From the NCBI RefSeq assembly GCF_000423465.1, contig NZ_KE384021.1, positions 677,459-741,458 on the forward strand: DNA of 64,000 bases. The letters run 5' to 3'. Positions 16,841 to 33,965 of the stretch are shown piece after piece (position 1 is the stretch's first letter; every line of letters begins with the position of its first letter). The notes beneath the pieces are model-generated. The model did no database searches. It was given only the letters and a program-made list of their open reading frames with translations, and was not told the origin of the DNA. Source of the stretch: Propionicicella superfundia DSM 22317 (GTDB lineage: Bacteria > Actinomycetota > Actinomycetes > Propionibacteriales > Propionibacteriaceae). The position numbers and the translations under genes were made by a program.

Positions 16841-17703
16841 CAGACGATCGGGGGCCGGCCGAGACGGGTCATCCGCCACGCCGTGCGCCACGACATGGGA
16901 CGCCGCTCACCGGCGTCGGTCCGCCACCCTTCGACGAAGCCGCGGAACCACACGGCCAGCGGCCCGGGCCTGCGCACCCGGACGACGGTGGCGAGCGTCC
17001 ACACCCCGAGGTACAGCGGGATCAGGGGCGCGGGCAGGTTGCGGCGCGCCACCCACACGCGGTTGCGTGCGTTCATGCGGTAGAACACCGCGTGCCGGGT
17101 CGCCGCGGTGGCGGGATGGTGGACGACGACGGACGGCTCGTAGCGGATCCGCCACCCCGCGTCCAGCAGCCGCATGGCGATGTCGACGCCCTCGTGGCCG
17201 TAGAAGAAGTGCCCGGGCCAGCCGCCGACCTCGTCGAAGGCGGTGCGCCGGATCATGCACAGGGCCTCCCAGAAGACCGCCGCCTCGCCGCCTCGCGCGT
17301 CGGGCCCCACCCGCAGGCGGGGCACCCAGCGTCGTGGCGTCGGGCGTCCGTACGGATCGGCGCCGCGCGGTTGGACGACCGCGACGGCGGGATCGGCGGC
17401 GAGCACCGCGGCCATCCGGGCGAGGACGTCGGACGTCGGCAGGGACGCGTCGTCGTCGTAGAAGAACACGTACTCCCCGCGTGCCTCGCGTGCCCCCACG
17501 TTGCGTCCCTCGGGGATGCCGACGTTCTCGGGCAGATGCACCGTGCGCACCCAGGCGGGCAGCCCCTCGGGCTCCCACCCGTTGCCCACGACGACGCAGT
17601 CGACGTCGACGCGTGCCTGGTCGCGAAGGGTGGCCAGGGCGGTCGCCAACTCGTCCGGGCGGTTACCCATGGAGAGCACCACGGCGGCGATCGTCGGCGT
17701 CAT
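16840..17703 (-). CDS. Glycosyltransferase family 2
   Basis: 287 residues from ATG 17703 (AAGGGAG just upstream; an in-frame ATG at 17724 is the alternative). It has a GT-A fold: IAAVVLSMGNRP at the N-terminus, EGRNVGAREARGEYVFFYDDDA with the metal-binding DDD near residue 80, and FFYGHEGVDIAMRLLDAGWRIRYEP, where the acceptor-site ED-like pair reads EGVD. A single basic or hydrophobic C-terminal region follows. It should transfer a nucleotide-activated sugar (rhamnose would fit) onto the growing lipid-linked glycan on the cytosolic side. It is translationally coupled to the next gene. Confidence 0.85.
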   Translation of the reverse strand: MTPTIAAVVLSMGNRPDELATALATLRDQARVDVDCVVVGNGWEPEGLPAWVRTVHLPENVGIPEGRNVGAREARGEYVFFYDDDASLPTSDVLARMAAVLAADPAVAVVQPRGADPYGRPTPRRWVPRLRVGPDARGGEAAVFWEALCMIRRTAFDEVGGWPGHFFYGHEGVDIAMRLLDAGWRIRYEPSVVVHHPATAATRHAVFYRMNARNRVWVARRNLPAPLIPLYLGVWTLATVVRVRRPGPLAVWFRGFVEGWRTDAGERRPMSWRTAWRMTRLGRPPIV

Positions 17704-17735
17704 CGTGCTCCCTTCGTCGGACATGAGCGCTTCCG

Positions 17736-18164
17736 TCACGGTACTACGCCGCGGAGGCGACCGAAGCACGCCACGAGGTCGCCCTCCCGCACCACGAGGG
17801 CGTCCACGGCGGAGGGGACCGGAACAGGCAGGCCGCGCGCCGCGAGGGTGAGGACCGGGGTCCGGGTGAGCTTCGCGACGACCTCGGCGGTGACCCATGC
17901 CTCCCAGAACTCCTCGGCCGGACCGTGCCAGCGGGCGGCGAGGTGCGGAGGCGGCACGGCGCGTCGCTCCACGTCGACGGCGAACGTGCCGTCGAGGCCG
18001 TGGCGCCAGCATGCCTGCGTGCCGTCGGGCAGGTACGAATGGAGGCCCCGGCACGCCGGCACGGGCAGATGCGCCCCCCGGGCACCGGAGGCCGCCGGTG
18101 CCGTGAACGTCAGCCGGGCGAGGTCCGCGGCGGCAGCCCAGCCGGCCGGGTCAGATCCCGCCAC
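17736..18164 (-). CDS. Small 4'-phosphopantetheinyl-transferase-like protein
   Basis: 142 residues from GTG 18164, overlapping the end of the reductase gene. Two short blocks match the Sfp/AcpS superfamily in the right order and spacing: FAVDVERR (Asp64, Glu66, the magnesium-binding pair) and FWEAWVTAEVVAKL (Glu94, Lys98, for the canonical W-x-x-KE-x-x-x-K). The Lys before Glu94 is Ala here, and the protein is shorter than the usual 200-240 residues. It may prime the adjacent acyl carrier protein with phosphopantetheine, or be a degenerate relative. The neighbourhood (carrier protein, AMP ligase, reductase) is the strongest support. Confidence 0.5.
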   Translation of the reverse strand: MAGSDPAGWAAAADLARLTFTAPAASGARGAHLPVPACRGLHSYLPDGTQACWRHGLDGTFAVDVERRAVPPPHLAARWHGPAEEFWEAWVTAEVVAKLTRTPVLTLAARGLPVPVPSAVDALVVREGDLVACFGRLRGVVP

Positions 18165-18897
18165 CGCCGTCGAGGACGATCACCTGGCCGTTGACGTTCG
18201 TGTCGGCGAAGAGCAGCATCTCGACGACGGGCACGACGTTCGCCGGTTCGACGAGCCGGCCCGACGGGGTGCGGCGGGTGATGGTGTCCAACTGGTTCGG
18301 CCCGAGGACCGAGCTCATCTCGGAGGCGAAGAAGCCCGGGGCGACCGAGTTCACCAGGACCCGGCCGTGCATCTCGCGGGCCAGGGCCCGCGTGGCGGCG
18401 TCGAGCCCGCCCTTGGTGGCCGAGTAGGCGACGAGGCCGGCGTAGCCGCGCTGTGCGCAGATCGACGTGACGTTGACCACGCGGCCTCGCCCGCCGCGGC
18501 TCATGATGTGCCGCAGCACGGCACGGGTGAGCACGAGCGGTGCGGTGAGGTTCGTCGAGATGATCGCGTCGATGCGCTCGGGAGACGTGTGCACGTGCAG
18601 GCTGTCCTGCCCGATCGCGGCGTTGTTCACCAGCGCGTCGATCGGGCCCAGATGCGCGGCGGCGTCCTTGATGAACCGCGTCGCTGCCGCGGCGTCGGTG
18701 GCGTCGACCGACCCGACGAACACCCGGTCGGGGTACGTCTCGGCGAGTTCGGTCATCCCGGGGGTGACCGTGCGGGCGAAGGCGGCGACCTTCGCGCCCT
18801 TGTCGAGCACGCTGCGGACGATCGTGAGGCCGAGGCCGCGCGACCCTCCGGAGACGAGGACGCAGGTGGCGGGGCCGATGGGTTCTGTATCAGACAT
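18151..18897 (-). CDS. 3-oxoacyl-ACP reductase-like short-chain dehydrogenase
   Basis: 248 residues, a complete classical SDR. The cofactor loop SGGSRGLG is near residue 16, NNAAIG follows, and the catalytic Ser is in NVTSICAQRG with Tyr and Lys in YSATK. It resembles FabG, which reduces 3-oxoacyl-carrier-protein to 3-hydroxyacyl-carrier-protein with NADPH. It lies between an AMP ligase plus carrier protein and a PPTase-like gene, with overlaps at both ends. Reducing a carrier-bound 3-oxoacyl group is therefore more likely than acting on a sugar, though a sugar reductase cannot be excluded. Confidence 0.8.
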   Translation of the reverse strand: MSDTEPIGPATCVLVSGGSRGLGLTIVRSVLDKGAKVAAFARTVTPGMTELAETYPDRVFVGSVDATDAAAATRFIKDAAAHLGPIDALVNNAAIGQDSLHVHTSPERIDAIISTNLTAPLVLTRAVLRHIMSRGGRGRVVNVTSICAQRGYAGLVAYSATKGGLDAATRALAREMHGRVLVNSVAPGFFASEMSSVLGPNQLDTITRRTPSGRLVEPANVVPVVEMLLFADTNVNGQVIVLDGGGGI

Positions 18898-20110
18898 CGC
18901 TCTTCAGGCTTTCGGAGATGGGGACGGAATCGAGCATGCGGAACCGCCGCGGCACGGCGTACTCCGCGAGACGGGCCGCGCACCACTGCGCGAGGCCGGC
19001 CTCGGTGACCGACGGGTCGGACAGGACGACATCGGCGGCGACGACGGTCCCGACGAGCGGGGCCCTGCGGCCCTTGACCGCCGCCCAGGCGACACCGGGG
19101 TGCGACAGCAGGACCTCGCGCACCTGTGCGGCGGAGACCTTGGAGCCGCCGACGTTGATCTCGTCCGTCGCCAGCCGACCCGTGATGAGCACACGGTCGT
19201 CAACGATCTGGACCCGATCTCCGGTGTGCAGTTCGGCGTCGATCCCCGCCCCTCTGTGGGGCGAGGCGATGAGCAGTTCGTCCCCGTCGACCCGCAGCCG
19301 CGGGCGACCGGGGGCGTCCCGGTCGAGCCAGGCGGCGGGGAACCCGGCGCGGCCGTCGTGGACGGCGATCGCCGCGCCGGCCTCCGACGAGGCGTAGATC
19401 CACGAGACACGCGCGGCGGGGAATGCCTCGTGGACGAGGTCGAGGACGCCCTGATCGACGGGCTCACCGCCGAGCGTCACCTGCTGGAGGCCGACCTCGC
19501 GCAGCGTCTCGCCGCTGCGCAGCAGCGCCTGCCGCCAGAAGGTGGGGGTGCCGGAGGCGGCGGTGACGCCGTGCCTGCGCGCGAGTTCGGGCCACCGCTC
19601 GAAGTCCTGCGGGCTCACGAACACGATGTCCTGTCCGGGCAGGTTCAACGACAGGGTGACGACCTGCCACCAGGCGTACGCGCCCGGCGTGTACGGGCAC
19701 AGCCAGGTGCGCGGCGGCTGCTGGCCGCCCACGGTGGTGAGGGACGCCAGCGTGTGTCCGACCCGCTTCGGGCGCCCGGTGGTGCCCGACGTCAGCAGCC
19801 ACACGCGATCCGCCTCGGGCGGACGGGGCGTCGGGGACGCGGTGACCTCGATGTCGTCGCCGGCGAGGTGCACGACCGCGAGACCCGCATCGAGCAGGCT
19901 GTCGACGAGACCGGGCTCGGCGCGCGACGCCGCCGCGACGAGCGTCTCGCGCGACCCCGTCGCATGCGTCCACACCACGCGCGCGGCGTCGAGGTCGTCG
20001 GCGACGAACACGGCGGCCGCCCCCGGCAGGTCGACGAGGGCGAGATCCTGCCATGTCGTCGTCGTGTCGCCGCTGACGATCCGGTTGGCGGCTCCGGCGG
20101 GCAGCGTCAT
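18890..20110 (-). CDS. AMP-forming acyl ligase (adenylate-forming enzyme), compact
   Basis: 406 residues, short compared with the usual 500-550. The ATP-binding loop LTSGTTGRPKRV (about 105-116), YASSEAG (the motif usually ending in E), HTGDRVQIVDDRVLITGR with the conserved Asp, NVGGSKVSAAQVREVL and a C-terminal ISESLKSDV with the catalytic Lys are present. It should activate a carboxylic acid as the adenylate and load it on the carrier protein encoded just upstream (4-bp ATGA overlap). The shortened N-terminal domain leaves the substrate open; a short acyl group is a guess. Confidence 0.82.
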   Translation of the reverse strand: MTLPAGAANRIVSGDTTTTWQDLALVDLPGAAAVFVADDLDAARVVWTHATGSRETLVAAASRAEPGLVDSLLDAGLAVVHLAGDDIEVTASPTPRPPEADRVWLLTSGTTGRPKRVGHTLASLTTVGGQQPPRTWLCPYTPGAYAWWQVVTLSLNLPGQDIVFVSPQDFERWPELARRHGVTAASGTPTFWRQALLRSGETLREVGLQQVTLGGEPVDQGVLDLVHEAFPAARVSWIYASSEAGAAIAVHDGRAGFPAAWLDRDAPGRPRLRVDGDELLIASPHRGAGIDAELHTGDRVQIVDDRVLITGRLATDEINVGGSKVSAAQVREVLLSHPGVAWAAVKGRRAPLVGTVVAADVVLSDPSVTEAGLAQWCAARLAEYAVPRRFRMLDSVPISESLKSDV

Positions 20111-20358
20111 GCTGTGAGCAGTTGGTCGATGAAGTCGAGGACGTCGCCGACCGTGCGGATCTCGCGCAGCCCGGGGGCGTCGAAGTTCAGTTCGGCGTCG
20201 ACCTCGTCCTCGACGCGCAGCGCCAGTTCGGAGAAGTCGAGGGAACGGAAACCGATCTCGTCCAGCGGCGTCGTGTCGCCGGCGGGGAGAGTCTTCCCCT
20301 GCTTGGTCAAGACGTCGGCCATCATCCCCCGCACCTCGTCGCGGCTCAGATCGCTCAT
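20107..20358 (-). CDS. Acyl carrier protein
   Basis: 83 residues, the standard size. The phosphopantetheine attachment site is Ser39 in IGFRSLDFSEL (family motif D/G-x-SLD-x-x-EL). It opens the four-gene set transcribed leftwards: carrier protein, AMP ligase, reductase, PPTase-like protein, with overlapping ends at each junction. It is separate from a primary fatty-acid synthase (no ketosynthase or malonyl transferase nearby), so it probably carries one acyl group for a dedicated purpose. It is divergent from pseH, 113 bp away. Confidence 0.88.
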   Translation of the reverse strand: MSDLSRDEVRGMMADVLTKQGKTLPAGDTTPLDEIGFRSLDFSELALRVEDEVDAELNFDAPGLREIRTVGDVLDFIDQLLTA

Positions 20359-20471: not shown

Positions 20472-20972
20472 ATGCTACGTCCGGCGACGGACTCCGACTC
20501 GGCCGATGTCCTGCGGTGGCGGAACCATCCCGACGTGCGGGCGGTGTCCCTCACGCAGCATGTCATCGGCACCGCCGAACACACCGCCTGGTGGGAACGG
20601 ACCATGGTCGACCCGACACGACGGGTCCTCATCTACGAACGCGCCGGGGCGCCCGCCGGCGTCGTGACGTTCTTCGACATCGACGCCGCCGCGCACACGG
20701 CCTGGTGGGGCTACTACCTGGACAACGAGGGCCTCACCGCGGCGGGCGCCCTGTTCCCGGCGTGGATCCAGATCCAGCGGGACGCCGTGAAGTACGCCCG
20801 CGACGTCCTCGGCCTGCGCGAACTGCACGCGGAGACACTCGGCTCCAACGACTCGGTGCGCCAGGTCAACTCTCGGCAGGGCTTCGAGGAGGTCGAGACG
20901 ACCCGGCGCGAGATCGGCGGCCGGACGGTCGACGTCATCCACACCGTCAAGCGATTCGAGGAGGGCGCATGA
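20472..20972 (+). CDS. pseH: PseH-like N-acetyltransferase (GNAT)
   Basis: 166 residues. In pseudaminic acid synthesis PseH acylates N4 of UDP-4-amino-4,6-dideoxy-beta-L-AltNAc, using acetyl-CoA. The N-terminus LRPATDSDSADVLRWRNHPDVR and the late block HAETLGSNDSVRQVNSRQGFEEV are typical of this GNAT branch. GGGAGG precedes the ATG by 4 nt. Its stop overlaps the pseI start (ATGA). Assignment rests on fold plus tight coupling to pseI. Since an acyl-carrier-protein set starts 113 bp away, the donor might be an acyl-ACP with a longer acyl group instead of acetyl-CoA; this is inference. Confidence 0.78.
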   Translation: MLRPATDSDSADVLRWRNHPDVRAVSLTQHVIGTAEHTAWWERTMVDPTRRVLIYERAGAPAGVVTFFDIDAAAHTAWWGYYLDNEGLTAAGALFPAWIQIQRDAVKYARDVLGLRELHAETLGSNDSVRQVNSRQGFEEVETTRREIGGRTVDVIHTVKRFEEGA

Positions 20973-22024
20973 ACGCCGCCAGCATCGAGATCGGGGGCGT
21001 CCGTGTGGGCGCGGACGCGCCTCCCTTCATCATCGCCGAGATGAGCGGGAACCACGACGGCTCGTTGGACAAGGCGTTGCAGATCGTCGATGCCGCGGCC
21101 GAGGCCGGGGCGCACGCGATCAAGCTGCAGACCTACACGGCCGACACGATCACCATCGACGCCGACACCCCCGACTTCCGCATCTCCAAGGGGCATGCCC
21201 TGTGGGGCCAGCGACGCCTGTACGACCTGTACGACGAGGCGCATACGCCGTGGGAGTGGCACGAGCCGATCTTCGCGCGGGCGCGCGAACTGGGCATTCT
21301 CGCGTTCTCCAGCCCGTTCGACCCGACCGCGGTGGCGTTCCTCGCCGACCTGGACGTCCCGGCGTACAAGATCGCTTCCAGCGAGATCGTGGACCTGCCG
21401 CTGATCCGCACCGCGGCGGCCGTGGGCAGGCCGATCATCATCTCGACGGGGATGGCGTCGATCGCTGAGATCGATGCCGCCGTGACCGCCGCTCGCGGCG
21501 TCGGCAACGACCAGATCATCGTGCTCGGTTGCACGGCCGACTACCCGGCCGACCCGGCGTCGGCGAACCTGCGGTCGCTGCCGGTGCTCGCCGATGCGTT
21601 CGGGACGCTCGTCGGCCTGTCCGATCACACGATGGGCATCGGCGTGGCCGTCGCCTCGGTCGCCTTCGGCGCCTGCGTCATCGAGAAGCACGTCACGGTG
21701 TCGAGGGACGGTGGCGGGGTCGATTCGGCGTTCTCCCTGGAGCCCGACGAACTCGCCGCGCTCGTCGCCGAGACCGATGTCGCCCGGCAGGCGCTCGGCA
21801 GCGCGCGGATCGGTGCCAAGCCGTCCGAGCGAGAAGGGCTGCGTTTCCGCCGCTCGTTGTTCGTCACGCGCGATGTCCGCGCGGGCGAACCCGTGTCCGC
21901 CGACAATGTGCGGTCGATCCGGCCGGCGGGAGGGCTCGCGCCCGATCTGTTCGCCACGGTCTCGGGACGCCTCTTCCGGGTCGATGCTGCGAAGGGGACG
22001 CCACTCACCTGGGACCTGCTCTGA
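20969..22024 (+). CDS. pseI: Pseudaminic acid synthase
   Basis: 351 residues of the NeuB family. It condenses phosphoenolpyruvate with the 6-deoxy-2,4-diacetamido-hexose released by PseG to form pseudaminic acid. The N-terminus PFIIAEMSGNHDGSLDKAL is the PseI/NeuB start, AGAHAIKLQTYTADT follows, and YKIASSEIVDLPLI and IISTGMAS are barrel motifs. HTMGIGVAVASVAFGACVIEKHVTVSRD is near residue 225. The last 60 residues are an SAF antifreeze-like domain (GLRFRRSLFVTRDVRAGEPV). 'MSGNHDGSLDKAL' favours PseI over NeuB or LegI, and the pathway genes nearby agree. Confidence 0.9.
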   Translation: MNAASIEIGGVRVGADAPPFIIAEMSGNHDGSLDKALQIVDAAAEAGAHAIKLQTYTADTITIDADTPDFRISKGHALWGQRRLYDLYDEAHTPWEWHEPIFARARELGILAFSSPFDPTAVAFLADLDVPAYKIASSEIVDLPLIRTAAAVGRPIIISTGMASIAEIDAAVTAARGVGNDQIIVLGCTADYPADPASANLRSLPVLADAFGTLVGLSDHTMGIGVAVASVAFGACVIEKHVTVSRDGGGVDSAFSLEPDELAALVAETDVARQALGSARIGAKPSEREGLRFRRSLFVTRDVRAGEPVSADNVRSIRPAGGLAPDLFATVSGRLFRVDAAKGTPLTWDLL

Positions 22025-23544: not shown

Positions 23545-23743
23545 TGGCGGCCCGATCGCTCCGGGCGGGGAGAGGCACGCGCGCGACCCGCTCGTCACCG
23601 CTGACACGGGCCGTGGGCTGATGCACCAGGCTTCCTGCCGGAATCCATGTCGGTTTGGCCCGCGCCCGCCCGGTTGTGTCTGACGGTGGGGGGAAATACC
23701 GCTACTGTCACTTCGACAGCACTCAGATCCGTGGAGGATGAAC

Positions 23744-26404
23744 GTGGCTAGGCCAAAACCGAGAGAAGCAGACAACCAAGTCTATGGGCCCTCCTTCAAC
23801 CGGATGTGCGGACTGGCCGAGGGCTACTGGCAATCGAACACACTCGCTGCGGGGCAGGCGATCGTGCTGGTCGATCTCCTCTACCAGGACGTTCGTGTAG
23901 CGATCCGTGTGCTAACGATGGCTGCGTCGCTCCAACGTGATCGGCATGTGCGGCTCGTGGGTTTGGTGGGTCCCGACAAGCATTGGCGCGACGAAATCTG
24001 GGGCTACTACGATGTCGACCGGCTTAAGCAGTTGGCGCAGGCGTACGGGGTGGAGGAGTTCATCGACCTCGGCCGCGTGGTGGAGGATTCCTTGGAGGGT
24101 TCCGCTTCTTTCACTCTGGGTGGTGAAGAGGTGTTGATCCCCGGCGAGTCTGGTATATCTCGGCAAACGTTCTCTGAGATCGCAGAGGCGACGCAATTAC
24201 GTGCTCTGCGTATTCCCAAGATCACCCCAGAGGTGCTAGATAACCAAGAGTATCGGGCACTCCAGAAGCGTTGTGAGCATTTCTCTCGCGTGTGGGACGC
24301 GCTGATGCAGCTCGATGTCGTAGCGTTTGTGGCCAGTCATATCGACTATCATCAGTGGGGCTTCGGCGTTGAGGCGGCAATGCGGCACGGTGTCGAGATC
24401 TACCATCTGCAATCGACGGGATCGTTCAAGGCGTACGCATTGTTCCCTGAGATGTTGCACGACGGATACAGCGCCCGGATGGTGTGGACGGAACAAATTG
24501 CAGACTTTTTCGAGGAGCACGTGTGGCCCGCGAGGGAGATCCTCGCGCGCTCGGCTGAACTCACCGCGTATCGGTCCAAGACGAATCAGGGGCGACCGTC
24601 ATGGTGGCGTGGCGGCGGCAGCGTGTCGCACCTGGATTTCAGCACTCCTGAGGAGCGCGATTCGATCCGTTCGCTCGGGATGGCGCAGCTAGGTCTCGAT
24701 TCTCGGAAGCCCGTGGTCGCAGTGTTCAATCACGCCGTTTCGGATGCGGTTCACTCCAACTACGAGGTTTTCGACAACCTTGCCGACTGGTTCGATGCGA
24801 CGCTACGATTCGCCGCTGGGCACCCAGAGGTGAATTGGTTGCTTGTGGATCATCCCGCGCAGGCCCACTATGATGGTACGGAATGGTTCGAACGTCTTGC
24901 AGAAGAGTACGACGATGTCGACCATATGGCTTTCATCTCCAGCATGGATGTGTCGAAGAATGTCATGTGGAGCCTTGTCGACACCGCCGTCACGGTGCGC
25001 GGCAGCGTCTCGAACGAGTTTCCCGCCTATGGTGTGCCAGCGATTCAGGCCGGGTGGTCGGAGTGGAGTCATTGCGGGTTCTCGCAACGCGCGGACACCC
25101 AGGACGAGTATTGGCAGCTTCTCAATGACAACATCGCGGCACTGCTGCGAGGAGAGACCCTCATCTCCGAGGAGCAGGTGATGCGGGCACGTCTGTGGTT
25201 GTGGTTCTATCGGGCGGGTGCGGACGTGGCATCGCCGATCGTGCCGCACTGGGAGATGCTGCAAGGCGTGGAGTTGCACCAGAACATGTCTGTTGCGTTC
25301 GGGCATGTGGAGGCCGACGCGGACGCCGCACTGGTCGCGGTGCGTCGCCTTCTTCAGCGCCGCGACCCGCTGCTGACCAGGGTCGATTTTCACGTGGACG
25401 TCCCGGCCCTAGCGGACTCGTTGGGCGTTGTCGATCATTCTGTGGGCGCACCAGGATGTGGCGTGACGACCGTTTTTGACAATCCGGCGGAGCCGCTGGA
25501 ACTTCCGGGAAGAGTCGAGTCGGGGCAGGACCCTTCGCTCGTTGTCGTCGACGGCTTCGCGCGCGGACAGGCTGTCGTCGGCCGTGCGGTTCGAGGTCGC
25601 ATCCTTCTCGGTATCAAGACGGGCGGCACACAGCGGGACCTGATCGTTACCGCCGAACTCATGATTGACGTCCAGACCCACCGATGGTACGCCGAGCGCC
25701 ACCCTGATGCCGAGATGTTGGATTCCCGAGGGCCCCGGTGCATTCGTGTGAGATGCCACGATGCGATTGTGGCCGGGGTTGTGCTGGTCGGCGAGCGGAC
25801 CAGACAGACAATCACCTTCCGAGTGCCGGCGGCAGCGGTCGATGACGGAAGTCTGCTGCTCATCGAGTTCAGCGACGCGGCCGAGGGAGAACCCGGCGCG
25901 ACGACTGACCCTCTCTGCGGTGTCTGCATCACAGCCATCGACTTCGCCGAATCCCGAGAGGCATCCGAGGAGCGCGTGGGTGCCATCACGTATGACGATC
26001 GCGTGCTCGTCCCGGGAACACCGCTCATGGGGGTCGCCCCAGGCGGCTCTACGCTGCGGTTCCGAGTCGTGGACAGCCCGCGTGTCACGGGGACGGCCAC
26101 GGGAGTACGCGGGAATCTGGCTCGCGCGAAGCGAAAGGTCGAGTTGCATGGACGCCGCGCCCTGCGCCGTGCACTGCCCCTACCTCGGCTGAGCGCCGAC
26201 AGCGTCTCAGCAACAGCCTGGGCGTCAGGCGGGGAAGCCCACCGTGTCGCGGCCCGGTTCCCGACGCCGGAGACCTGCGAGGTGAAACTTCCCTCGGGGG
26301 AAGGGGACGCGCCCGTGACGTACTTCCGCCTTTCGGTGCGCTCCGAGGCTTTGAGCCGCGCAGGGTACAGCCGGCATGTCCGCTGGGAGCGGGTGAGGTT
26401 GTGA
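23744..26404 (+). CDS. Large capsule-type glycosyltransferase, low GC, probably acquired
   Basis: 886 residues. GGAGG (23733-23737) lies 6 nt before GTG 23744 but directly touches the ATG at 23738, so I choose the GTG. Residues about 35-470 look like a GT-B capsule polysaccharide transferase: LVDHPAQAHY (an HP motif near 370) and TVRGSVSNEFPAYGVPAIQAG (near 417-437) resemble the KpsS-like donor site. Residues about 590-740 are a beta-rich region of unknown role and the C-terminus is basic. In three 60-base lines I counted by hand, GC is about 57-60% in the first half, against about 70% around it, suggesting recent transfer. A pseudaminic acid or other glycan transferase is likely; I cannot name the linkage. 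Confidence 0.6.
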   Translation: MARPKPREADNQVYGPSFNRMCGLAEGYWQSNTLAAGQAIVLVDLLYQDVRVAIRVLTMAASLQRDRHVRLVGLVGPDKHWRDEIWGYYDVDRLKQLAQAYGVEEFIDLGRVVEDSLEGSASFTLGGEEVLIPGESGISRQTFSEIAEATQLRALRIPKITPEVLDNQEYRALQKRCEHFSRVWDALMQLDVVAFVASHIDYHQWGFGVEAAMRHGVEIYHLQSTGSFKAYALFPEMLHDGYSARMVWTEQIADFFEEHVWPAREILARSAELTAYRSKTNQGRPSWWRGGGSVSHLDFSTPEERDSIRSLGMAQLGLDSRKPVVAVFNHAVSDAVHSNYEVFDNLADWFDATLRFAAGHPEVNWLLVDHPAQAHYDGTEWFERLAEEYDDVDHMAFISSMDVSKNVMWSLVDTAVTVRGSVSNEFPAYGVPAIQAGWSEWSHCGFSQRADTQDEYWQLLNDNIAALLRGETLISEEQVMRARLWLWFYRAGADVASPIVPHWEMLQGVELHQNMSVAFGHVEADADAALVAVRRLLQRRDPLLTRVDFHVDVPALADSLGVVDHSVGAPGCGVTTVFDNPAEPLELPGRVESGQDPSLVVVDGFARGQAVVGRAVRGRILLGIKTGGTQRDLIVTAELMIDVQTHRWYAERHPDAEMLDSRGPRCIRVRCHDAIVAGVVLVGERTRQTITFRVPAAAVDDGSLLLIEFSDAAEGEPGATTDPLCGVCITAIDFAESREASEERVGAITYDDRVLVPGTPLMGVAPGGSTLRFRVVDSPRVTGTATGVRGNLARAKRKVELHGRRALRRALPLPRLSADSVSATAWASGGEAHRVAARFPTPETCEVKLPSGEGDAPVTYFRLSVRSEALSRAGYSRHVRWERVRL

Positions 26405-26489: not shown

Positions 26490-28322
26490 ATGGTTTCGGA
26501 GCTGACCCCCGAAGCGCGAGGAGTACACATCATCGGCGGTGACATGTTCGCTTGGTCCGATTTCGTGGCACCCCCGGCAGAAGACCTTGGGGATGACGAC
26601 GACGATGATGACGATGACGATGAGGCCGACGACGACGATGACGATGAGCCCGAGGACGTCCCGATCGTCCCGGACCCCTCCGCGCTCTGGGCCAGCGTGC
26701 TCGGCGCGTCGCTCGCCGCAGCGAAGGGGAGGGTCCTGCTGATCGGCCCCGAGGCCGCTCGGTGCCTGCCGCTGGTGTCGACGCGGGCCAACGTCGACGT
26801 GCTGGTCCGCTCGCGCCTCGACTCGGCGATGCTGGTCGGCATCCACCCCCGGGCCAAGATCTGGTGCGGATCGGTCGCCCGCTTCGAGCCGGAGCATGAC
26901 TACGACCTGGTCGTGGGCCTGGACACGTTCGACGTGTTCTACTCCACCGACGAGGGCATGCGCCCCGAGCGCGAGACCGTCGACAGGGTGCGTGGCTGGG
27001 CCGGGGCCAAGGGGCGTCTCGTGCTGCGGATGACGAACCTGCTGGGCCTCGACCGGCTGCTCCAGGTGTCCCGGCCGGGCCAGTCGGTCTGGGACCACGC
27101 GGAGAGCGGCCTTGCCTACGAGGCCGCTGTCGCCCTCGATCCGGGCGCTGAGGTCGCTTTCGTCGCGGGCACTCCCTCCAGGCTGTTCATCACCGGCTCG
27201 GCGGCCACCGACCCGGACCTCGCAGGGCTGCTGACGCTCGCTGCGGCGTCCGTGTTCGCCGACGAGCAGGCAGACGCCCTGTCCCTCCAGGATCCCTGGG
27301 GTGTCGTCCCCGACGTGGTGCACAGCGGAGACCTGCTCCGGCTGGCCCCCGGCTGGCTGCTGACACGCGGCGTGCGCCTCCCGCGCCTCGCCTACGCGCC
27401 CGACGACCGTCTCGCCGGCACCTGGCAGCGTTCGTGGCGGCTCCAGGCGGACGAGGTCGGTGAGATCACCGGCGCCTCGGACACCAGGTCGATGGTCGGG
27501 CCGCTCATCCGCGAGGGCACGGCCGTCCTGGGCGGGTTGCGGGCCAGCGAGTCGCTGGAGGCCGTGTGGCGCCGCGCCGCAGCCACCGGGGAGTTCGAGA
27601 GACTCCGCGACGAGGTGGTCGTCTGGTCCGCCTGGCTGGCCACGCTTCCCGTGGAGCAGGCCTTCTTCGCCGCGCCCAGCAACTGCGTGCGCGACGAGGA
27701 GGGCGCGTTGTCCCTGCTGGACAGCACGTGGCGCTGGCAGTCCGGGCACCTGGACCTCGCCAAGGCGGTGTGCCTGCGCGAGTTCGCCGACAGGATCCTG
27801 ACGTCCGGGGCCACGCACCCGTGGCCCGCGTCGATCAGCCTCGACGCGGCATGGGAGAGCCTGACCCTCATGGCCGGCGTCGAACTCACCGACGACCTGC
27901 TGCGTGCGGTCGTGCAGCTCGGCGTCCGCATCGAGACGCTGCAGCTCGGCGTCGAGGTCGACGTCGCCGATGAGCTCGAGCGGCGCCTGGACGCGGGGCG
28001 TGCGGCGAGGCTGAGCCTCTCCAGTTCGTGGAGCAGGCTGGAGAGCCAGGCGGTGATCCACAAGCTCAACGCGCGACTGGTGCGCGACGAGGAGCAGCTT
28101 CGCTGGTGCAACACGCACATCAAGTGGCAGGACAAACAGCTCAACTCCGAGCGGCGTCATCTGGCGAGCATCCAGCGCTCCGTCCCGTACAAGATCGCCC
28201 GTGCGATGACCTGGCCCGGCCGCGCCGTCATCGCGGCAGGAAAGGGCGTCGTCGTACGCGCCCTGCCGCCGGGCGCATGGGACCGGATCGTCCGGTTCGC
28301 CAAGGCCAGGCTGAGGGGCTGA
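26490..28322 (+). CDS. SAM-methyltransferase-like protein with a poly-aspartate run
   Basis: 610 residues. Residues 35-54 are an acidic stretch (ten Asp, Glu-Ala, six Asp) encoded by GAY triplet repeats. Residues about 80-200 have a class I methyltransferase-like order: GRVLLIGPEA, NVDVLVRS, YDLVVGLDTFD, GAKGRLVLRMTN; the glycine-rich loop is poor, so activity is uncertain. The middle (about 200-500) is helical and unassigned. Residues about 525-575 look like a coiled coil followed by SVPYKIARAMTWPGR, a tail common in actinobacterial glycan-modifying proteins. It follows the capsule-type transferase (85-bp gap) and probably shares its transcript. Confidence 0.55.
   Translation: MVSELTPEARGVHIIGGDMFAWSDFVAPPAEDLGDDDDDDDDDDEADDDDDDEPEDVPIVPDPSALWASVLGASLAAAKGRVLLIGPEAARCLPLVSTRANVDVLVRSRLDSAMLVGIHPRAKIWCGSVARFEPEHDYDLVVGLDTFDVFYSTDEGMRPERETVDRVRGWAGAKGRLVLRMTNLLGLDRLLQVSRPGQSVWDHAESGLAYEAAVALDPGAEVAFVAGTPSRLFITGSAATDPDLAGLLTLAAASVFADEQADALSLQDPWGVVPDVVHSGDLLRLAPGWLLTRGVRLPRLAYAPDDRLAGTWQRSWRLQADEVGEITGASDTRSMVGPLIREGTAVLGGLRASESLEAVWRRAAATGEFERLRDEVVVWSAWLATLPVEQAFFAAPSNCVRDEEGALSLLDSTWRWQSGHLDLAKAVCLREFADRILTSGATHPWPASISLDAAWESLTLMAGVELTDDLLRAVVQLGVRIETLQLGVEVDVADELERRLDAGRAARLSLSSSWSRLESQAVIHKLNARLVRDEEQLRWCNTHIKWQDKQLNSERRHLASIQRSVPYKIARAMTWPGRAVIAAGKGVVVRALPPGAWDRIVRFAKARLRG
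26591..26646 (+). repeat. GAC/GAT trinucleotide repeat encoding poly-Asp
   Basis: Sixteen of nineteen consecutive codons are GAC or GAT, interrupted by GAG-GCC and followed by GAG-CCC. As the unit is 3 bp, slippage would change length without shifting frame. Confidence 0.8.
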
Positions 28323-28387: not shown

Positions 28388-29239
28388 TCACTCCCATCCG
28401 AACCAGTAGCGGATCTCGGCCGGGCTCAGCATCTCTGCGGTGCCGAGCTCCTCCTGCGCGATTCGCAGTGCGTCGGCAGGCGGGACGAAGGGCTGGTCCA
28501 TCTCGGGCCACAGTCGCCGCTGCTTCTCGATTCCCCCCAGGACCGCGTGGTCGTTCTCGATCGCCATCGGGTCGCCGTAGACGCCGACATCGAGACCGAG
28601 GGAGGCCGCGTAGAGGAGGGCCGATCCCATCCGATTGCTGACGGCGCGGCCGTGGCGGAGGAGTTCGGTCATCTGCCGGTCGAGGAACCAGGGCTGGGTT
28701 CCCTTGTACATGAAGCCCCGCGTGCCGTGGGTGATGACGCGAACATCCTGCTTGACGTAGGCCTTGCGGATCTCCGGATCCCGGTACTCGTCCCAGTACA
28801 GGCACACGGTGATCGGCACGTCGCCCTCCACCCGGCGGACGTCGGCGAGCAGGTCCGCGTGCGAGCCCATCAGCCGCTGCTCCTCCCAGCCGTGGAAGGG
28901 ATAGACGATCACGCTGTTGCTGTCCGGCCGGCGCGGCTCGAGACGGCCGGTGAGCGACTGCAGGTACACCCACGGGGCACCCATGACGATGTGGTCGGTG
29001 TGGCCGAGCGCACGCCCGCGCCGGGCGACCGCCCTGGTCCACACGAACTTCTTGAATCCGGGCACGAGCGCCGTGCCGACCGCATAGCCGTCCCACAGGT
29101 TCCAGCCGTGCTGCACGAATCCGTCGATTCGAGGCGGACGCGGGGGCTCGTCACCCCAGACGTCCTCTCCACCTTCGAAGAGACCCGCGTAGCGGGCCAG
29201 GATGTGCGCGTGACCGTAGAAGTGATTCGCGTGATGCAC
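28388..29239 (-). CDS. Unassigned protein of the pseudaminic acid operon, possible glycosyltransferase
   Basis: 283 residues from GTG 29239, with GGAG 7 nt upstream. No named family is certain. Visible features are FVQHGWNLWDG near residue 42 (compare the WHG of CDP-polyol transferases), IVYPFHGWEE near 111, and HGTRGFMYKGTQPWFLDRQM followed by SNRMGSALLYAASLGLDVGVYGDPMA, a Ser-rich donor-site-like segment of the type seen in GT-B capsule enzymes. It starts 3 bp after pseC and is the last gene of the leftward pseB-pseC unit. The position suggests use of the product sugar, for example as transferase. That is inference. Confidence 0.5.
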   Translation of the reverse strand: MHHANHFYGHAHILARYAGLFEGGEDVWGDEPPRPPRIDGFVQHGWNLWDGYAVGTALVPGFKKFVWTRAVARRGRALGHTDHIVMGAPWVYLQSLTGRLEPRRPDSNSVIVYPFHGWEEQRLMGSHADLLADVRRVEGDVPITVCLYWDEYRDPEIRKAYVKQDVRVITHGTRGFMYKGTQPWFLDRQMTELLRHGRAVSNRMGSALLYAASLGLDVGVYGDPMAIENDHAVLGGIEKQRRLWPEMDQPFVPPADALRIAQEELGTAEMLSPAEIRYWFGWE

Positions 29240-29242
29240 GGG

Positions 29243-30370
29243 TCAGCTCCGAAGCGCGTGCCGCAGGGCGTCGATCACCTGGGACTGCTGGTCGTCGGTG
29301 AGGTCGGCGAACATCGGCAGGGAGATCTCCTCGGAGTAGAACCGTTCCGCGTTGGGACACATGCCGCGTCGGTAGCCCAGGTCTTCGAACACGGGGTGCC
29401 AGTACACGGGAATGTAGTTGACCTGCACGCCGATGCCGGCGGCGCGAAGCTTGTCGAACACCTCGCGGCGGCGCCCGTCGAGGATCCGCACCGGATAGAG
29501 GTGCCAGGTGGGATCGACCCCGTCGCGCACGGTGTGCGTGCGGACGCCGTCGATACCGGACAACTCCTCCTGGTAGCGGGCGAAGAGGTCGGCCCGGCGC
29601 GCCTTGAACCGGTCGAGCCGCCGCAACTGGCTCAGTCCCAGCGCGGCATGCACGTCGGAGAGCCGGTAGTTCAGACCCCACTCGTGGACCTCCTGGTGCC
29701 ACGGTCCCTCGTCGGGGTGCCGCATCCGGGAACGGTCGCGGACAAGGCCGATGAAATGGAACTCGTGAACCCGCTGCCCGACGGTCGGGTCGAGGCTCGC
29801 GACGGCCCCGCCTTCCGCGGTCGTCATGTTCTTCGTGGGGAAGAACGAGAACGTCGTGAGGTCGGCCAGCGACCCCACGGGACGCCCGTCGTCGGTCGAG
29901 CCGATGGAGTGGGCGGCGTCCTCCACCGTCACGGCTCCGACCCCGTGGGCGATCGCGTTGATCTCGTCCATCTCGGCCGGCTGCCCGGCGAAGTCGACGG
30001 CGGCGACCACCTGCGTGCGGTCGGTGACCACGGCCGACACCGCGGCCGGGTCGATGTTGGCCGTGCCCTCGTCGATGTCGGCGAAGACGACCTCGGCCCC
30101 GAGAGCGAGCGCGCTCGACGCCGTCGCGACGAACGTCATCGGGGTCGTCACGACCTGCGACCCCCGGGTGACACCCGCTCCGGCGTAGGCCATGTGCAGC
30201 GCAGCGGTCCCGGACGTCGCGGTGACCACGCGCGCCGCGCCGGTCCGATCCTGCAACGCCTCCTCGAACCGGCTCACCGCCGGCCCGGTGGTGAGCCAGT
30301 CGCTCCGCAGCACCTCGGCGACCGCCGCGATGTCGTCCTCGTCGATGGACTGGCGTCCGTAGGGGAGCAC
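29243..30370 (-). CDS. pseC: UDP-4-keto-6-deoxy-AltNAc aminotransferase
   Basis: 375 residues of the DegT/DnrJ/EryC1 PLP-dependent family. PseC transfers an amino group from glutamate to C4 of the PseB product. The N-terminus LPYGRQSIDEDDIAAVAEVLRSDWLTTGP is very close to PseC. Other landmarks are ATSGTAALH (PLP phosphate), VEDAAHSIGS with the ring-binding Asp and FFPTKNMTTAEGG with Lys180 for the Schiff base. It begins with GTG 30370, one base after the pseB stop, so the two are coupled. Confidence 0.92.
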   Translation of the reverse strand: MLPYGRQSIDEDDIAAVAEVLRSDWLTTGPAVSRFEEALQDRTGAARVVTATSGTAALHMAYAGAGVTRGSQVVTTPMTFVATASSALALGAEVVFADIDEGTANIDPAAVSAVVTDRTQVVAAVDFAGQPAEMDEINAIAHGVGAVTVEDAAHSIGSTDDGRPVGSLADLTTFSFFPTKNMTTAEGGAVASLDPTVGQRVHEFHFIGLVRDRSRMRHPDEGPWHQEVHEWGLNYRLSDVHAALGLSQLRRLDRFKARRADLFARYQEELSGIDGVRTHTVRDGVDPTWHLYPVRILDGRRREVFDKLRAAGIGVQVNYIPVYWHPVFEDLGYRRGMCPNAERFYSEEISLPMFADLTDDQQSQVIDALRHALRS

Positions 30371-30371
30371 G

Positions 30372-31358
30372 TCAGACCTCGGTCTCGAGGATCCGGGTGA
30401 TCTCCTCGCCCGAGAACCACTGATCGTTCTTGTCGGACGTGTAGTGGAAGCCCGCCGGGACCTGCTTCCCCTCGGCCGGGGACTCGTAGCCCCAGGTGGC
30501 GAGGTCGGGCTGCAGCACGTAGCGGGTGTCGCTGAGGAGCAGCGTCCGGCGTCCCTCCTCGGCCGAGATCATCTCCTCGTGCAGCTTCTCGCCCGGCCGG
30601 AGGCCGATCTCGTGCATCGGCGCGCCCGGCGCGATGGCCTGGGCGAGGTCGACGATCCTCATGCTGGGGATCCGCGGCACGTACAGCTCGCCGCCCTGCA
30701 TCCGGTCGAACGAGTCGAGCACGAACTGGACCGCCTGCGGCAAGGTGATGAAGAACCGCGTCATCCGGAAGTCGGTGATCGGCAGCGACTCTCCCGACGC
30801 GGCGAGCTTGCGGAAGAACGGGATGACCGAACCGCGCGAGCCCATCACGTTCCCGTACCGCACGACCGAGAACCGCGTCGGGTAACGGGCCGCGTAGTGG
30901 TTGCCCGAGATGAACAGCTTGTCGGCGGTGAGCTTGGTGGCCCCGTACAGGTTGATCGGGCTGGAGGCCTTGTCGGTGGACAGCGCGACGAGCTTCTGGA
31001 CACCGACGTCGATGGACGCCTCGATGACGTTCTGCGAGCCGATGACGTTCGTCTTCACGAACTCCCACGGGTTGTACTCGGCGGTGTCCACCTGCTTCAG
31101 CGCAGCCGCGTGGACGACGTACTCCACGCCGTGCATCGCGCGCATCAAGCGGTGCTGGTCGCGGATGTCGCCGATGAACCAGCGCAGCCGCGGATCGTTG
31201 TCGAACAACTGCCTGCACTCGTACTGCTTCAGCTCGTCCCGGCTGAACACCACGATCCGGCGCGGATTGATGTCTGTCAGCAGACGCTTGATCAGCGCCT
31301 TTCCGAACGAACCCGTACCGCCCGTGATAAGCACCGACGATCCCGTGAGCAGGCTCAT
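30372..31358 (-). CDS. pseB: UDP-GlcNAc 4,6-dehydratase (C5-inverting)
   Basis: 328 residues. PseB (FlaA1) starts the pathway by converting UDP-GlcNAc to UDP-2-acetamido-2,6-dideoxy-beta-L-arabino-hexos-4-ulose. NADP loop GGTGSFG (13-19), VVHAAALKQVDTAEYNPWEFVKTN, STDKASSPINLYGATK with Asp129, Lys130, Tyr138 and Lys142, and YGNVMGSRGSVIPFF are diagnostic for the inverting soluble enzyme. ATG 31358 is preceded by AAGGGA. It is the first gene of the leftward unit pseB-pseC-unassigned protein. The start is 121 bp from divergent pseG. Confidence 0.94.
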   Translation of the reverse strand: MSLLTGSSVLITGGTGSFGKALIKRLLTDINPRRIVVFSRDELKQYECRQLFDNDPRLRWFIGDIRDQHRLMRAMHGVEYVVHAAALKQVDTAEYNPWEFVKTNVIGSQNVIEASIDVGVQKLVALSTDKASSPINLYGATKLTADKLFISGNHYAARYPTRFSVVRYGNVMGSRGSVIPFFRKLAASGESLPITDFRMTRFFITLPQAVQFVLDSFDRMQGGELYVPRIPSMRIVDLAQAIAPGAPMHEIGLRPGEKLHEEMISAEEGRRTLLLSDTRYVLQPDLATWGYESPAEGKQVPAGFHYTSDKNDQWFSGEEITRILETEV

Positions 31359-31479: not shown

Positions 31480-32517
31480 ATGCGCGTGGCGATCCGCGTC
31501 GACGCCACTGTGGCCAACGGGGTGGGGCACGTCGTGCGCCAGCTCGCGCTCGCTGAGGAGCTTCGCGCCCGCGGCCACGAGGTGACCCTGCTCGGTGTCA
31601 GCGACGTGCCCTGGGCTCTGCGCCAGCTCGCGGCGCGGGGGCTGGGGTTCGTCGCCCCGGCACCGCCCCACGATGTCGGGAGGCAGGCGGCGGGCCTCGG
31701 CGCCGACGTGGCGATCATCGACGGCTACGCCGTTCCCGCTGCGACGGGGGAGGCGCTGAGGGCGGCGGGAATCCCGGTCGCGACGATGGTCGACGGCCGT
31801 TTCGGGGTCCATCAGCGCGCCGACCTGTACGTCGACCAGAACCTGAACGCCGTCCGGCTGCCGGAGCTGCCTGCCGCCGCGGAGTTCCTGGGCGGTCTCG
31901 GCTATGTCCTGCTGCGCGACCAGATCCGCGACCGGCGCGGCGTCGCATCGCCCACATCGGGGACGCCCCGCGTCCTCGTGGTGTTCGGCGGCACAGACGC
32001 CTACGGCGGCGCGCGCGTGCTCGTCCCGCTGCTGCTGGCGACCGGCGTGCCCGTCGAGGTGGTCGCCGTCACGGCCACCGAGGCGATCGCCGCCGAGCTC
32101 GCGGCGCTGCCCACCGGCGCCGGCCAGTCGATGGACGTGCACGGTCCGGTGGACGATCTCGGCGGGCTGGCCGTGACCTGCCACGCCGCGGTGAGCGCGG
32201 CCGGCACCACCGTGTGGGAACTGCTGTGCCTCGGACTGCCGACTGGCCTGGTGTGCGTCACCGAGAACCAGGAGTTCGGGTATCTGGAGGCAGGACGGAC
32301 GCGCGTCGCCGGGACGCCGGTGTGCGTCCCGGTCGGACGGCTGACCGAGCTGCGTGACGACGCGGCCGGCCGGGCCGAGGCCGTCGGGCGGCTGCGAGGC
32401 CTGCTGACCGACGCCCCGCTGCGGTCCGAGATGGCCGCCGCGGCGCGCACGCTGGTGGACGGCGACGGCCGGGTGCGCGTCGCCGACGCGGTGGAGCGTC
32501 TCGCAGCCGGCCGGTGA
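31480..32517 (+). CDS. pseG: UDP-2,4-diacetamido-2,4,6-trideoxy-beta-L-altropyranose hydrolase
   Basis: 345 residues. PseG removes UDP from the 2,4-diacetamido sugar so that PseI can use it. The start MRVAIRVDATVANGVGHVVRQLALAEELRARGHEV is the PseG/SpsG nucleotide-sugar loop, with the catalytic His of G-x-GH-x-x-R. Later VVFGGTD and SAAGTTVWELLCLGLPTGLV are GT-B-like UDP-binding blocks. I use ATG 31480 (ACGAGG upstream); GTG 31453 is in frame and possible. It is followed by the cytidylyltransferase gene 41 bp on. Confidence 0.9.
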   Translation: MRVAIRVDATVANGVGHVVRQLALAEELRARGHEVTLLGVSDVPWALRQLAARGLGFVAPAPPHDVGRQAAGLGADVAIIDGYAVPAATGEALRAAGIPVATMVDGRFGVHQRADLYVDQNLNAVRLPELPAAAEFLGGLGYVLLRDQIRDRRGVASPTSGTPRVLVVFGGTDAYGGARVLVPLLLATGVPVEVVAVTATEAIAAELAALPTGAGQSMDVHGPVDDLGGLAVTCHAAVSAAGTTVWELLCLGLPTGLVCVTENQEFGYLEAGRTRVAGTPVCVPVGRLTELRDDAAGRAEAVGRLRGLLTDAPLRSEMAAAARTLVDGDGRVRVADAVERLAAGR

Positions 32518-32558: not shown

Positions 32559-33965
32559 ATGACCGCCAGTCGCCGTACCCGCGTCGTGATCCAGTCCCGA
32601 TTGTCGTCCTCGCGCCTGCCCGGCAAGGCGCTCATGTCCATCGCGGGAATGCCGCTCATCGAGCTCGTCGCGCGCAGAGCGTCCCGCACCGGTGACGAGG
32701 TCGTCGTCGCCACGAGCGTGGAGGCGTACGACACCCGGATCGCCGATCATCTGGAGCGTGTCGGAATCCCGGTCGTGCGCGGTCCGCTGGACGACGTTCT
32801 CGGCCGCTTCGTGATGGCGACCGCCGACCTCGACCCCGACGACCGGGTCGTCCGCCTCACCGGCGACAACCCGATCGCCGACGCGGATCTGGTGCACGAG
32901 CTGCTGGACGCGATGGACGCGTCCGGCAATGCGTACGGCCGGGTCGACATCGACCGCGTGCCGGAGGGGCTGGGCGCGGAAGGCTTCTCCGTGCGCGACC
33001 TGCGGATCGCCGCCGAGCGCGCGACGGCTGCCTACGACCGCGAGCACGTCACGCCCTGGCTGCGGCGCGAACTCGGCGAGCTGCTGTTCGTGCCGGCGCA
33101 GAACCCGGGCGACCCGGTCGCCTATCGCTGCACGACCGACTGCCTCAACGACTACTACCGGATCTCGCGGCTGTTCGACGACGAGCCCGACCCGGTCGGC
33201 GTGCCGTGGGGCGCCCTGATCGGCAAGCTCAAGGCCGACGTCGACTCGGCCGGGCCGATGGTGCCCGTCACCGGCCTGCGCCCGCGGACGACGTCCCTGC
33301 TGCTCGGGACCCGCAACGTCGGGCGCCTGGGAGCCGATACGAGCCGTGACGGCGCGACCGTGCGCGACGTGTTCGTCAGCGCGGTGAACCGGGGACTGTC
33401 ACACGACGTCGCCGAGCCCGGGACGGTCGACATCGTGCGGCAGGGCACGCTGCCGGCCCTGCAACAGCGCCTCCGCACGATCCTGCGCCTCCCGGTGCTG
33501 GTCGGCGGCCTGTCCGGCAGCGCCCTCCACTACCAGGTGCGCACGGCGGTCGAGAACGGGTTCGCCCACCTCGCTCGCCGGTCGCTGGCGGCGGTGGTCT
33601 TCGGATCCGTCGCGAACGCGCTGGACGCCGACGCGACCGCCTGGGCGACGCTCGCGGAATACCGGGCGGACCAGTCGGTGGGCAAGATCGGCGTCTCGCT
33701 CGCGTCGCCTGCCGAACTGGGCGCACTCGGGCGGCTTCCGGGCGTCGACCTCGTCGTCGCCGATGTCGCCGACCGGGCCGACCTGGACGGCTACGCGGAG
33801 CTCGCGCGTCGCGGCGCGACCCGGCTGGCCGTGATCGGCGCACCGCACGACGAGCGGCTGCTGCACGCCGCGCTCGACGCGGAGTGGGTCGATGCGGTCG
33901 TGGTCAACCCGGTCACCGTGGCGCAGCTCGATGCGAGCATCCGCGCGGCGGCCGTCCACAGGTGA
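32559..33965 (+). CDS. pseF: PseF/SpsF-type cytidylyltransferase fused to an aldo/keto-reductase-like domain
   Basis: 468 residues. Residues 1 to about 235 are an SpsF-type CMP-sugar synthetase (VVIQSRLSSSRLPGKAL, VVVATSVEAYDTRIADHL, RGPLDDVLGRF, RLTGDNPIADADLV, REHVTPWL), which activates pseudaminic acid with CTP. Residues about 255-468 resemble an aldo/keto-reductase barrel: SLLLGTRNVGRLG at its start, and VGKIGVSLASPAELGALGRLPGVDLV, the V-x-x-IGVS strand of that fold. The catalytic Asp-Tyr-Lys-His tetrad cannot be recognised, so the domain is probably inactive or changed. ATG 32559 fits homology; GTG 32514, overlapping the pseG stop, is an alternative. Confidence 0.8.
   Translation: MTASRRTRVVIQSRLSSSRLPGKALMSIAGMPLIELVARRASRTGDEVVVATSVEAYDTRIADHLERVGIPVVRGPLDDVLGRFVMATADLDPDDRVVRLTGDNPIADADLVHELLDAMDASGNAYGRVDIDRVPEGLGAEGFSVRDLRIAAERATAAYDREHVTPWLRRELGELLFVPAQNPGDPVAYRCTTDCLNDYYRISRLFDDEPDPVGVPWGALIGKLKADVDSAGPMVPVTGLRPRTTSLLLGTRNVGRLGADTSRDGATVRDVFVSAVNRGLSHDVAEPGTVDIVRQGTLPALQQRLRTILRLPVLVGGLSGSALHYQVRTAVENGFAHLARRSLAAVVFGSVANALDADATAWATLAEYRADQSVGKIGVSLASPAELGALGRLPGVDLVVADVADRADLDGYAELARRGATRLAVIGAPHDERLLHAALDAEWVDAVVVNPVTVAQLDASIRAAAVHR

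Follow-up and report, generated by a model that had tools for sequence, protein, structure and literature searches.

Why would a cytidylyltransferase of nonulosonate biosynthesis carry a reductase-like domain that has no catalytic residues? This question is raised by P0001, a fusion protein encoded in a 64,000-nt stretch of Propionicicella superfundia DSM 22317 DNA (contig NZ_KE384021.1, positions 677,459 to 741,458; the window, to which coordinates refer unless a locus is named). A preliminary description, made from the sequence alone, had taken the N-terminal half for a normal cytidylyltransferase and the C-terminal half for an aldo/keto reductase (AKR)-like domain in which the Asp-Tyr-Lys-His tetrad could not be found. 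The protein and its two domains are:

32559..33965 (+): P0001, cytidylyltransferase fused to a degenerate AKR (pseudo-EpaA), 468 aa, from translation and family matches
32559..33254 (+): cytidylyltransferase domain, residues 1-232; motifs SRLSSSRLPGKAL, RLTGDNP and EHVTPW kept; PF02348, 4.8e-25
33285..33962 (+): degenerate, shortened AKR barrel, residues 243-468, assigned by an hhalign probability of 97.4 and a low-confidence model with AKRs on top

The cytidylyltransferase of a complete pse cluster

The N-terminal assignment was borne out, as PF02348 matched residues 9-175 of P0001 with E = 4.8e-25 (89.1 bits, gathering cut-off 22.6). The PseF equivalog test with TIGR03584 failed (13.1 bits, cut-off 205.7), and because this score is so low, specificity for pseudaminate has to be judged from context: P0001 lies in a pse cluster, and nothing else in the genome (23 contigs, 3.62 Mb, 98% complete) matches PF02348. 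On these sequence data, P0001 most probably serves as the cluster's CMP-pseudaminic acid synthetase. It would share the presumed reaction and the pathway position with stand-alone PseF, from which it differs by its score far under the equivalog cut-off and by its extra domain. The gene starts 41 nt after a PseG-like gene and the pse cluster is complete:

31486..32517 (+): PseG-like UDP-sugar hydrolase; TIGR03590, 4e-33, under its cut-off
30372..31358 (-): PseB-like dehydratase; PF02719, 7.8e-97
29243..30370 (-): PseC-like aminotransferase; TIGR03588, 422.1 bits, cut-off 423.5
28388..29239 (-): 283-aa protein, possible transferase, without Pfam match; recurs in the pse clusters of relatives
20969..22024 (+): PseI-like synthase; phmmer against annotated pseI, 390 bits
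20472..20972 (+): PseH-like N-acetyltransferase; PF13302, 1.3e-08

No Pfam match at E <= 0.01 was obtained for the 283-aa protein, for an 888-aa protein (23738-26404, +) or for a 610-aa protein (26490-28322, +), the last with a long aspartate run close to its N-terminus. Among 17 related loci scanned, relatives of the 283-aa protein occurred in seven (L012, L045, L047, L049, L055, L056, L058) and relatives of the 610-aa protein in two (L045, L049); both proteins are candidate pseudaminyl transferases. Upstream of the pse genes, the region 15848-20358 (-) contains a polysialyltransferase-like gene (PF07388 just under cut-off) together with a cassette that encodes an acyl carrier protein, an AMP-ligase and a short-chain dehydrogenase and is possibly a sugar acylation system. 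The RNA fold 3' of the P0001 stop codon was unremarkable (z = 0.17).

A contig search with P0001 alone returned a single relative, and later sampling was done from genome collections. The C-terminal half was matched in 10 of 198 genomes of the same family, that of P. superfundia among them, with 44-62% whole-protein identity between P0001 and its relatives; conserved, co-linear proteins were present in three other genera of the family. In a sample of the phylum, 3 of 396 genomes were positive, one of them with a single-domain protein. The phage collection gave no match to the cytidylyltransferase-AKR fusion.

Descent of the C-terminal half from aldo/keto reductases

Searched against Pfam, the C-terminal half of P0001 gave no match up to E = 10, and the PF00248 gathering score was not reached. 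Its relatives were more informative. Five of 11 aligned family members, those with longer C-terminal halves, matched Aldo_ket_red PF00248 (best 1e-17), and a profile built from five longer C-terminal halves found solved AKRs (1ynp, 1.9e-07). When profiles were compared with eight intact AKR domains, the six shortest forms were aligned with an hhalign probability of 97.4 (E = 9.3e-12, 154 columns) and the longer degenerate forms reached 99.6 against intact AKR domains, compared with 0.3 for a dehydrogenase control profile. The Pfam AKR score fell gradually from 112 bits in an intact form (L025) through 62 (L005), 45 (L012, Luteipulveratus), 40 (L063), 29 (L087), 20 (L088) and 16 bits (L080) to none in L003, L089 and P0001.

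Structure prediction, which the preliminary description had proposed as a check, pointed in the same direction. Two AlphaFold models of P0001 from two-row alignments (P0001 and L012) were weak, with mean pLDDT values of 44.7 and 50.8, and the pair alignment behind the second is questionable over its final third. An alignment of four rows that included viral AKR-like proteins was misaligned and was left out of all results. With the second model Foldseek placed AKRs first (46 among the 50 matches listed, judged from their descriptions; E from 3.3e-4, TM to query 0.30-0.47). As the models are weak, these matches support the fold only jointly with the sequence evidence. VIA-align gave SmbA as the top row, tied with AKRs (Z 9.4 vs 8.9), and EAL-domain rows tied as well. 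As judged from sequence comparison, the C-terminal half of P0001 is an AKR by descent, and the proposed fusion of an AKR-derived barrel to a nonulosonate cytidylyltransferase is upheld by the profile alignment and by the PF00248-matching bridge sequences.

Repeated loss of the catalytic tetrad and shortening of the barrel

We classified 47 fused proteins, 45 of them genomic (including P0001) and two plasmid-borne (Marinovum pMaD10, Maritalea pHL2708Y3); genome G837, for which no locus was returned, was left out of the tetrad count. The complete Asp-Tyr-Lys-His (D-Y-K-H) tetrad was found in 11 of the 47 and in none of the other 36. Aligned to the tetrad-keeping relatives, P0001 has V, T or E (depending on the alignment), R and G at the four positions, which agrees with the missing tetrad of the preliminary description. 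The former catalytic sites are:

33402..33419 (+): former catalytic Asp/Tyr site, HDVAEP, residues 282-287, from alignments
33486..33488 (+): former catalytic Lys site, now R310, from the alignment
33603..33605 (+): former catalytic His site, now G349, from the alignment

Within the large degenerate clade (31 sequences, omitting L062, whose cytidylyltransferase domain is identical to that of L012, and L014, which has frame changes in its C-terminal half) Asp was kept in eight sequences, Lys in one, and Tyr and His in none. Tyr was kept in two of the three degenerate sequences nested within the intact clade.

It had also been stated that the overall length of an AKR is kept, and this did not hold: the C-terminal domain comprises 226 residues in P0001 vs 294-311 in the 11 intact fused domains. 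A strand-7 segment, RSxFLQGLL (V/A and F/Y varying), is present in 11/11 intact forms and deleted from P0001; in AKRs this segment forms the NAD(P)H cofactor side. Loss of reductase activity in the P0001 barrel is accordingly a well supported prediction from sequence. Both points on which the preliminary description could have fallen, absence of an AKR fold and an intact tetrad in a correct alignment, were checked and neither was found. Among the fused proteins, that of Maritalea myrionectae plasmid pHL2708Y3 (L060:3298-6045) is a 915-aa triple fusion in one frame, in which the cytidylyltransferase and an intact AKR are followed by a BNR (sialidase-type repeat) domain at the C-terminus (PF13088, 6e-13).

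In a tree of the cytidylyltransferase domain with 63 rows (the PseF of L061 and L044 were left out, having no start-motif match), all 47 fused proteins grouped apart from 16 single-domain ones (support 100/100). Three tetrad changes were needed on this tree: one in the large degenerate group, one in L087 and one in L088 plus L090, the latter two nested among the intact forms. Uniting all degenerate forms in one clade was disfavoured (AU p = 0.030). The tetrad is the ancestral state of AKRs, and the three changes thus represent at least three losses.

Probable relation to EpaA/EpaB and co-loss of the dehydrogenase

Prophages of Acinetobacter baumannii encode EpaA, a 542-aa protein with CTP_transf_3 at 5-192 and Aldo_ket_red at 239-525, and the 262-aa dehydrogenase EpaB, which together convert Pse5Ac7Ac to 8ePse5Ac7Ac in the capsule, as shown by NMR after complementation (available text of PMC12053666). 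P0001 resembles EpaA in having an N-terminal CTP_transf_3 and a C-terminal AKR domain in the same order, with similar boundaries and in the pseudaminic acid pathway, and its intact relatives stand beside an EpaB-like dehydrogenase. In contrast to EpaA, it has lost the tetrad, its barrel is about 80 residues shorter, its genome has no EpaB-like gene, and it is chromosomal and located inside a pse cluster. We infer the kinship of the two proteins from the order and coordinates of their domains and from the dehydrogenase next to the intact forms; EpaA (SBS22546.1) was not found in the phage and viral collections searched. A similar arrangement is described for the pse cluster of Vibrio B9-25K2, where an SpsF-type cytidylyltransferase-AKR fusion is followed by a dehydrogenase (PMC7371886). 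There, as in P. superfundia, the fused protein takes the place of the usual CMP-nonulosonate synthetase; unlike the P0001 locus, the Vibrio cluster has the dehydrogenase, and the available text of that paper reports no tetrad loss.

In the 11 loci with an intact fusion, a short-chain dehydrogenase directly adjoins it without exception. A profile built from eight such dehydrogenases was run on whole genomes in two sets (five of its eight rows came from genomes of the first set, none from the second). EpaB-like scores of 345-423 bits were obtained in 12 genomes, with everything else at or below 209 bits. An EpaB-like gene accompanied the intact fusion in 9/9 genomes (345-410 bits) and, by adjacency, in both named plasmids, and the degenerate fusion in 3 of 36 genomes (G167, G029, G132; 369-423 bits), a count that keeps both L012/G992 and L062/G894, maybe one species. 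The whole-genome search of G837, with its unclassified fusion, gave no EpaB-like dehydrogenase. Neither an EpaB-like dehydrogenase (best 138 bits) nor a separate EpaA-like AKR (best 57 bits) was detected in the genome of P. superfundia. In the sense of these comparisons, P0001 is built like EpaA, with cytidylyltransferase and AKR-derived domain in one chain, but fails the sequence-based tests for an active EpaA or AKR, and the EpaB-type partner is missing from its genome. Set against each other on the tree, tetrad loss and dehydrogenase loss gave three independent pairs, which in most pairings all ran in the expected direction (sign test p = 0.25, as three events cannot reach significance).

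The survey of fused and stand-alone versions near pse genes suggested in the preliminary description also brought up separate AKRs. G167, G029 and G132 each hold a separate EpaA-like AKR (275-412 bits); in G029 it has the D-Y-K-H residues and lies between PseG and the dehydrogenase, ahead of the dead fusion. On a Priestia plasmid a stand-alone cytidylyltransferase, an AKR and a dehydrogenase occur together in a full pse operon. The separate AKR gene of G167 (L054) contains a frame change; this one and those in L014 (G504) reflect either assembly error or recent gene loss.

Scans of viral contigs returned 2 + 27 loci, and no fused cytidylyltransferase-AKR was found among these 29. Two of them carry stand-alone, shortened AKR-like genes beside cytidylyltransferase and nonulosonate-type genes (L091:5764-6504 and L092:5926-6657), the L091 protein being without recognisable tetrad residues except a Tyr. 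The others (L093-L119) encode EpaB-like dehydrogenases scoring up to 252 bits, several of them near single-domain cytidylyltransferases.

Retention of the barrel and newly conserved positions

The C-terminal half comprises at least 202 residues in all 47 fused proteins save L014; in 35 of the 36 degenerate fusions the length was 202-321 residues, the exception again being L014 with its frame change. Every match beyond E = 1e-50 in the homologue searches extended well into the C-terminal half; single-domain members of the fused clade were thus not encountered, and no sampled member had dropped the domain. Estimated by a simple counting method, with codon bias not modelled and pairs that are not independent, dN/dS of the C-terminal half was 0.13-0.62 in 14 close degenerate pairs (below 1 in 14/14) and 0.16 and 0.33 in two intact pairs, and that of the cytidylyltransferase half was 0.07-0.43 across all 16 pairs. 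In the compared pairs the C-terminal value equalled or exceeded that of the cytidylyltransferase and reached 0.6 in P0001's own group, which indicates relaxed constraint. Mean pairwise identity in the 31-sequence clade was 0.32 (minimum 0.14) for the C-terminal half and 0.67 for the cytidylyltransferase. As read from these alignments, the reductase domain is repeatedly inactivated yet retained.

Sixteen C-terminal positions were at least 87% identical in the 31-sequence clade. Nine of them, conserved to 87-100%, are rare or absent in the intact enzymes (at most 3 of 11): R269 and P299 (31 of 31 each), E332 and G339 (30 each), R333 (29), W362 and Y368 (28 each) and A336 and R341 (27 each).

33363..33662 (+): residues 269-368, stretch with the nine positions (269, 299, 332, 333, 336, 339, 341, 362, 368), from the alignment

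P0001 itself has seven of the nine. In the weak model seven of the nine positions fall on helices and the other two just after one. Helices form the outside of a (beta/alpha)8 barrel, so the conserved residues appear to have shifted away from the barrel mouth. If the model is followed, the new positions are better explained by a contact surface than by a new active site.

Proposed function of the degenerate domain

We consider it likely that P0001 is a CMP-pseudaminic acid synthetase of EpaA-type descent in which the AKR is dead and the barrel persists in a non-catalytic capacity, probably as an interface or a structural part. In the intact form, the fused AKR and the neighbouring EpaB-type dehydrogenase would invert C-8 of pseudaminic acid, the dehydrogenase presumably oxidising C-8 and the AKR re-reducing it with the other stereochemistry. 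In the P0001 lineage the dehydrogenase is gone and the AKR has lost all four catalytic residues and the cofactor-side segment; C-8 would hence not be inverted, and the N-terminal domain, with a presumed activity on pseudaminic acid, would make plain CMP-pseudaminic acid. The residual barrel may touch the cytidylyltransferase domain or a second subunit, being retained through the newly conserved, mostly helix residues; this retained role is suggested by the positions on the predicted model. A more specific version, towards which we lean slightly less than away from it, is that the reductase has, far back in an actinobacterial clade, turned into a dedicated, non-catalytic partner on which the cytidylyltransferase depends, the selected residues having moved from mouth to helices and 8-epimerisation having been lost, in some relatives to be provided by a separate AKR-dehydrogenase pair.

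The preliminary description had left three options for the domain: a sugar-binding module, a regulatory module or a changed enzyme. The first two are no more than conceivable, and an interface or structural role fits better than either. Regulatory use of AKR-like barrels has precedents in SmbA and KidO, whose folds are AKR-related or of the TIM-barrel type and for which a reductase role is not established. Neither is fused to a cytidylyltransferase. In Caulobacter, the TIM-barrel protein SmbA has c-di-GMP and ppGpp as ligands (available text of PMC9944927). By analogy, the barrel of P0001 might be a regulatory sensor that governs the cytidylyltransferase in response to a bound small molecule (CMP-sugar, nucleotide messenger or nicotinamide). 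The tie of SmbA with AKRs in the structural comparison would suit such a sensor, as would the closest NCBIfam AKR model of the intact relatives, the regulator KidO (far under its cut-off), and an altered pocket common to many degenerate relatives, with E or D at the Asp site, D at Tyr and R at Lys. However, this pocket was not found in P0001's own group, and most of the newly conserved residues map to predicted helices and not to the mouth of the barrel; we regard a sensor as unlikely. Its SmbA-like, c-di-GMP-binding variant found no support in a motif check: RxxD is missing from the P0001 domain, and the commonest RxxD column occurs in 9 of 36 degenerate proteins.

It is similarly unlikely that the domain is a passive, functionless remnant that is slowly shrinking. 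Repeated shortening (202-243 residues in many forms), the divergence of the sequences and the upper dN/dS values would be expected of such a remnant. Against it, the domain persists in every sampled member of the fused clade, the frame is open in 35/36, dN/dS stays below 1 in every degenerate pair, and new positions are conserved in up to 31/31 sequences.

A changed enzyme would use new catalytic residues on the sugar, either ahead of its activation or once it is activated, and could draw on the newly conserved polar residues R269, E332, R341, W362 and Y368. These are mostly on predicted helices, P0001's group has no conserved acid/base pair at the former active site and the cofactor-side segment is deleted, which makes this option very improbable. 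A misreading or assembly artefact, with a C-terminal half that either has no AKR ancestry or is an AKR with a frameshift, might be suspected from the missing Pfam match of P0001 alone. It is refuted by the conserved, co-linear relatives in three other genera and by the longer, PF00248-matching forms that serve as a bridge; no AKR continuation follows downstream in another frame, and the probability of an artefact is close to nil.

In the literature searched, outside which most subscription journals lie, no description of a degenerate EpaA was found. To the preliminary description the analysis adds the intact EpaA-type parent, the accompanying loss of the EpaB-type dehydrogenase, the shortening of the barrel and the new conserved set, and an orphan domain is linked to an enzyme pair that was not characterised before 2025. 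For annotation, the 8-epimerising label should be reserved for fusions in which the tetrad is complete and which are accompanied by an EpaB-like gene. If the more specific version above, a reductase turned into a dedicated partner, is true, the state of the AKR and the EpaB-like gene would predict from the genome which bacteria make 8-epipseudaminic acid and which make pseudaminic acid. Should the retained role be confirmed, P0001 would clearly exemplify how a dead enzyme domain can be preserved for a structural purpose. The family illustrates how bacterial surface sugars may switch, by gain and loss, between pseudaminic acid and its 8-epimer.
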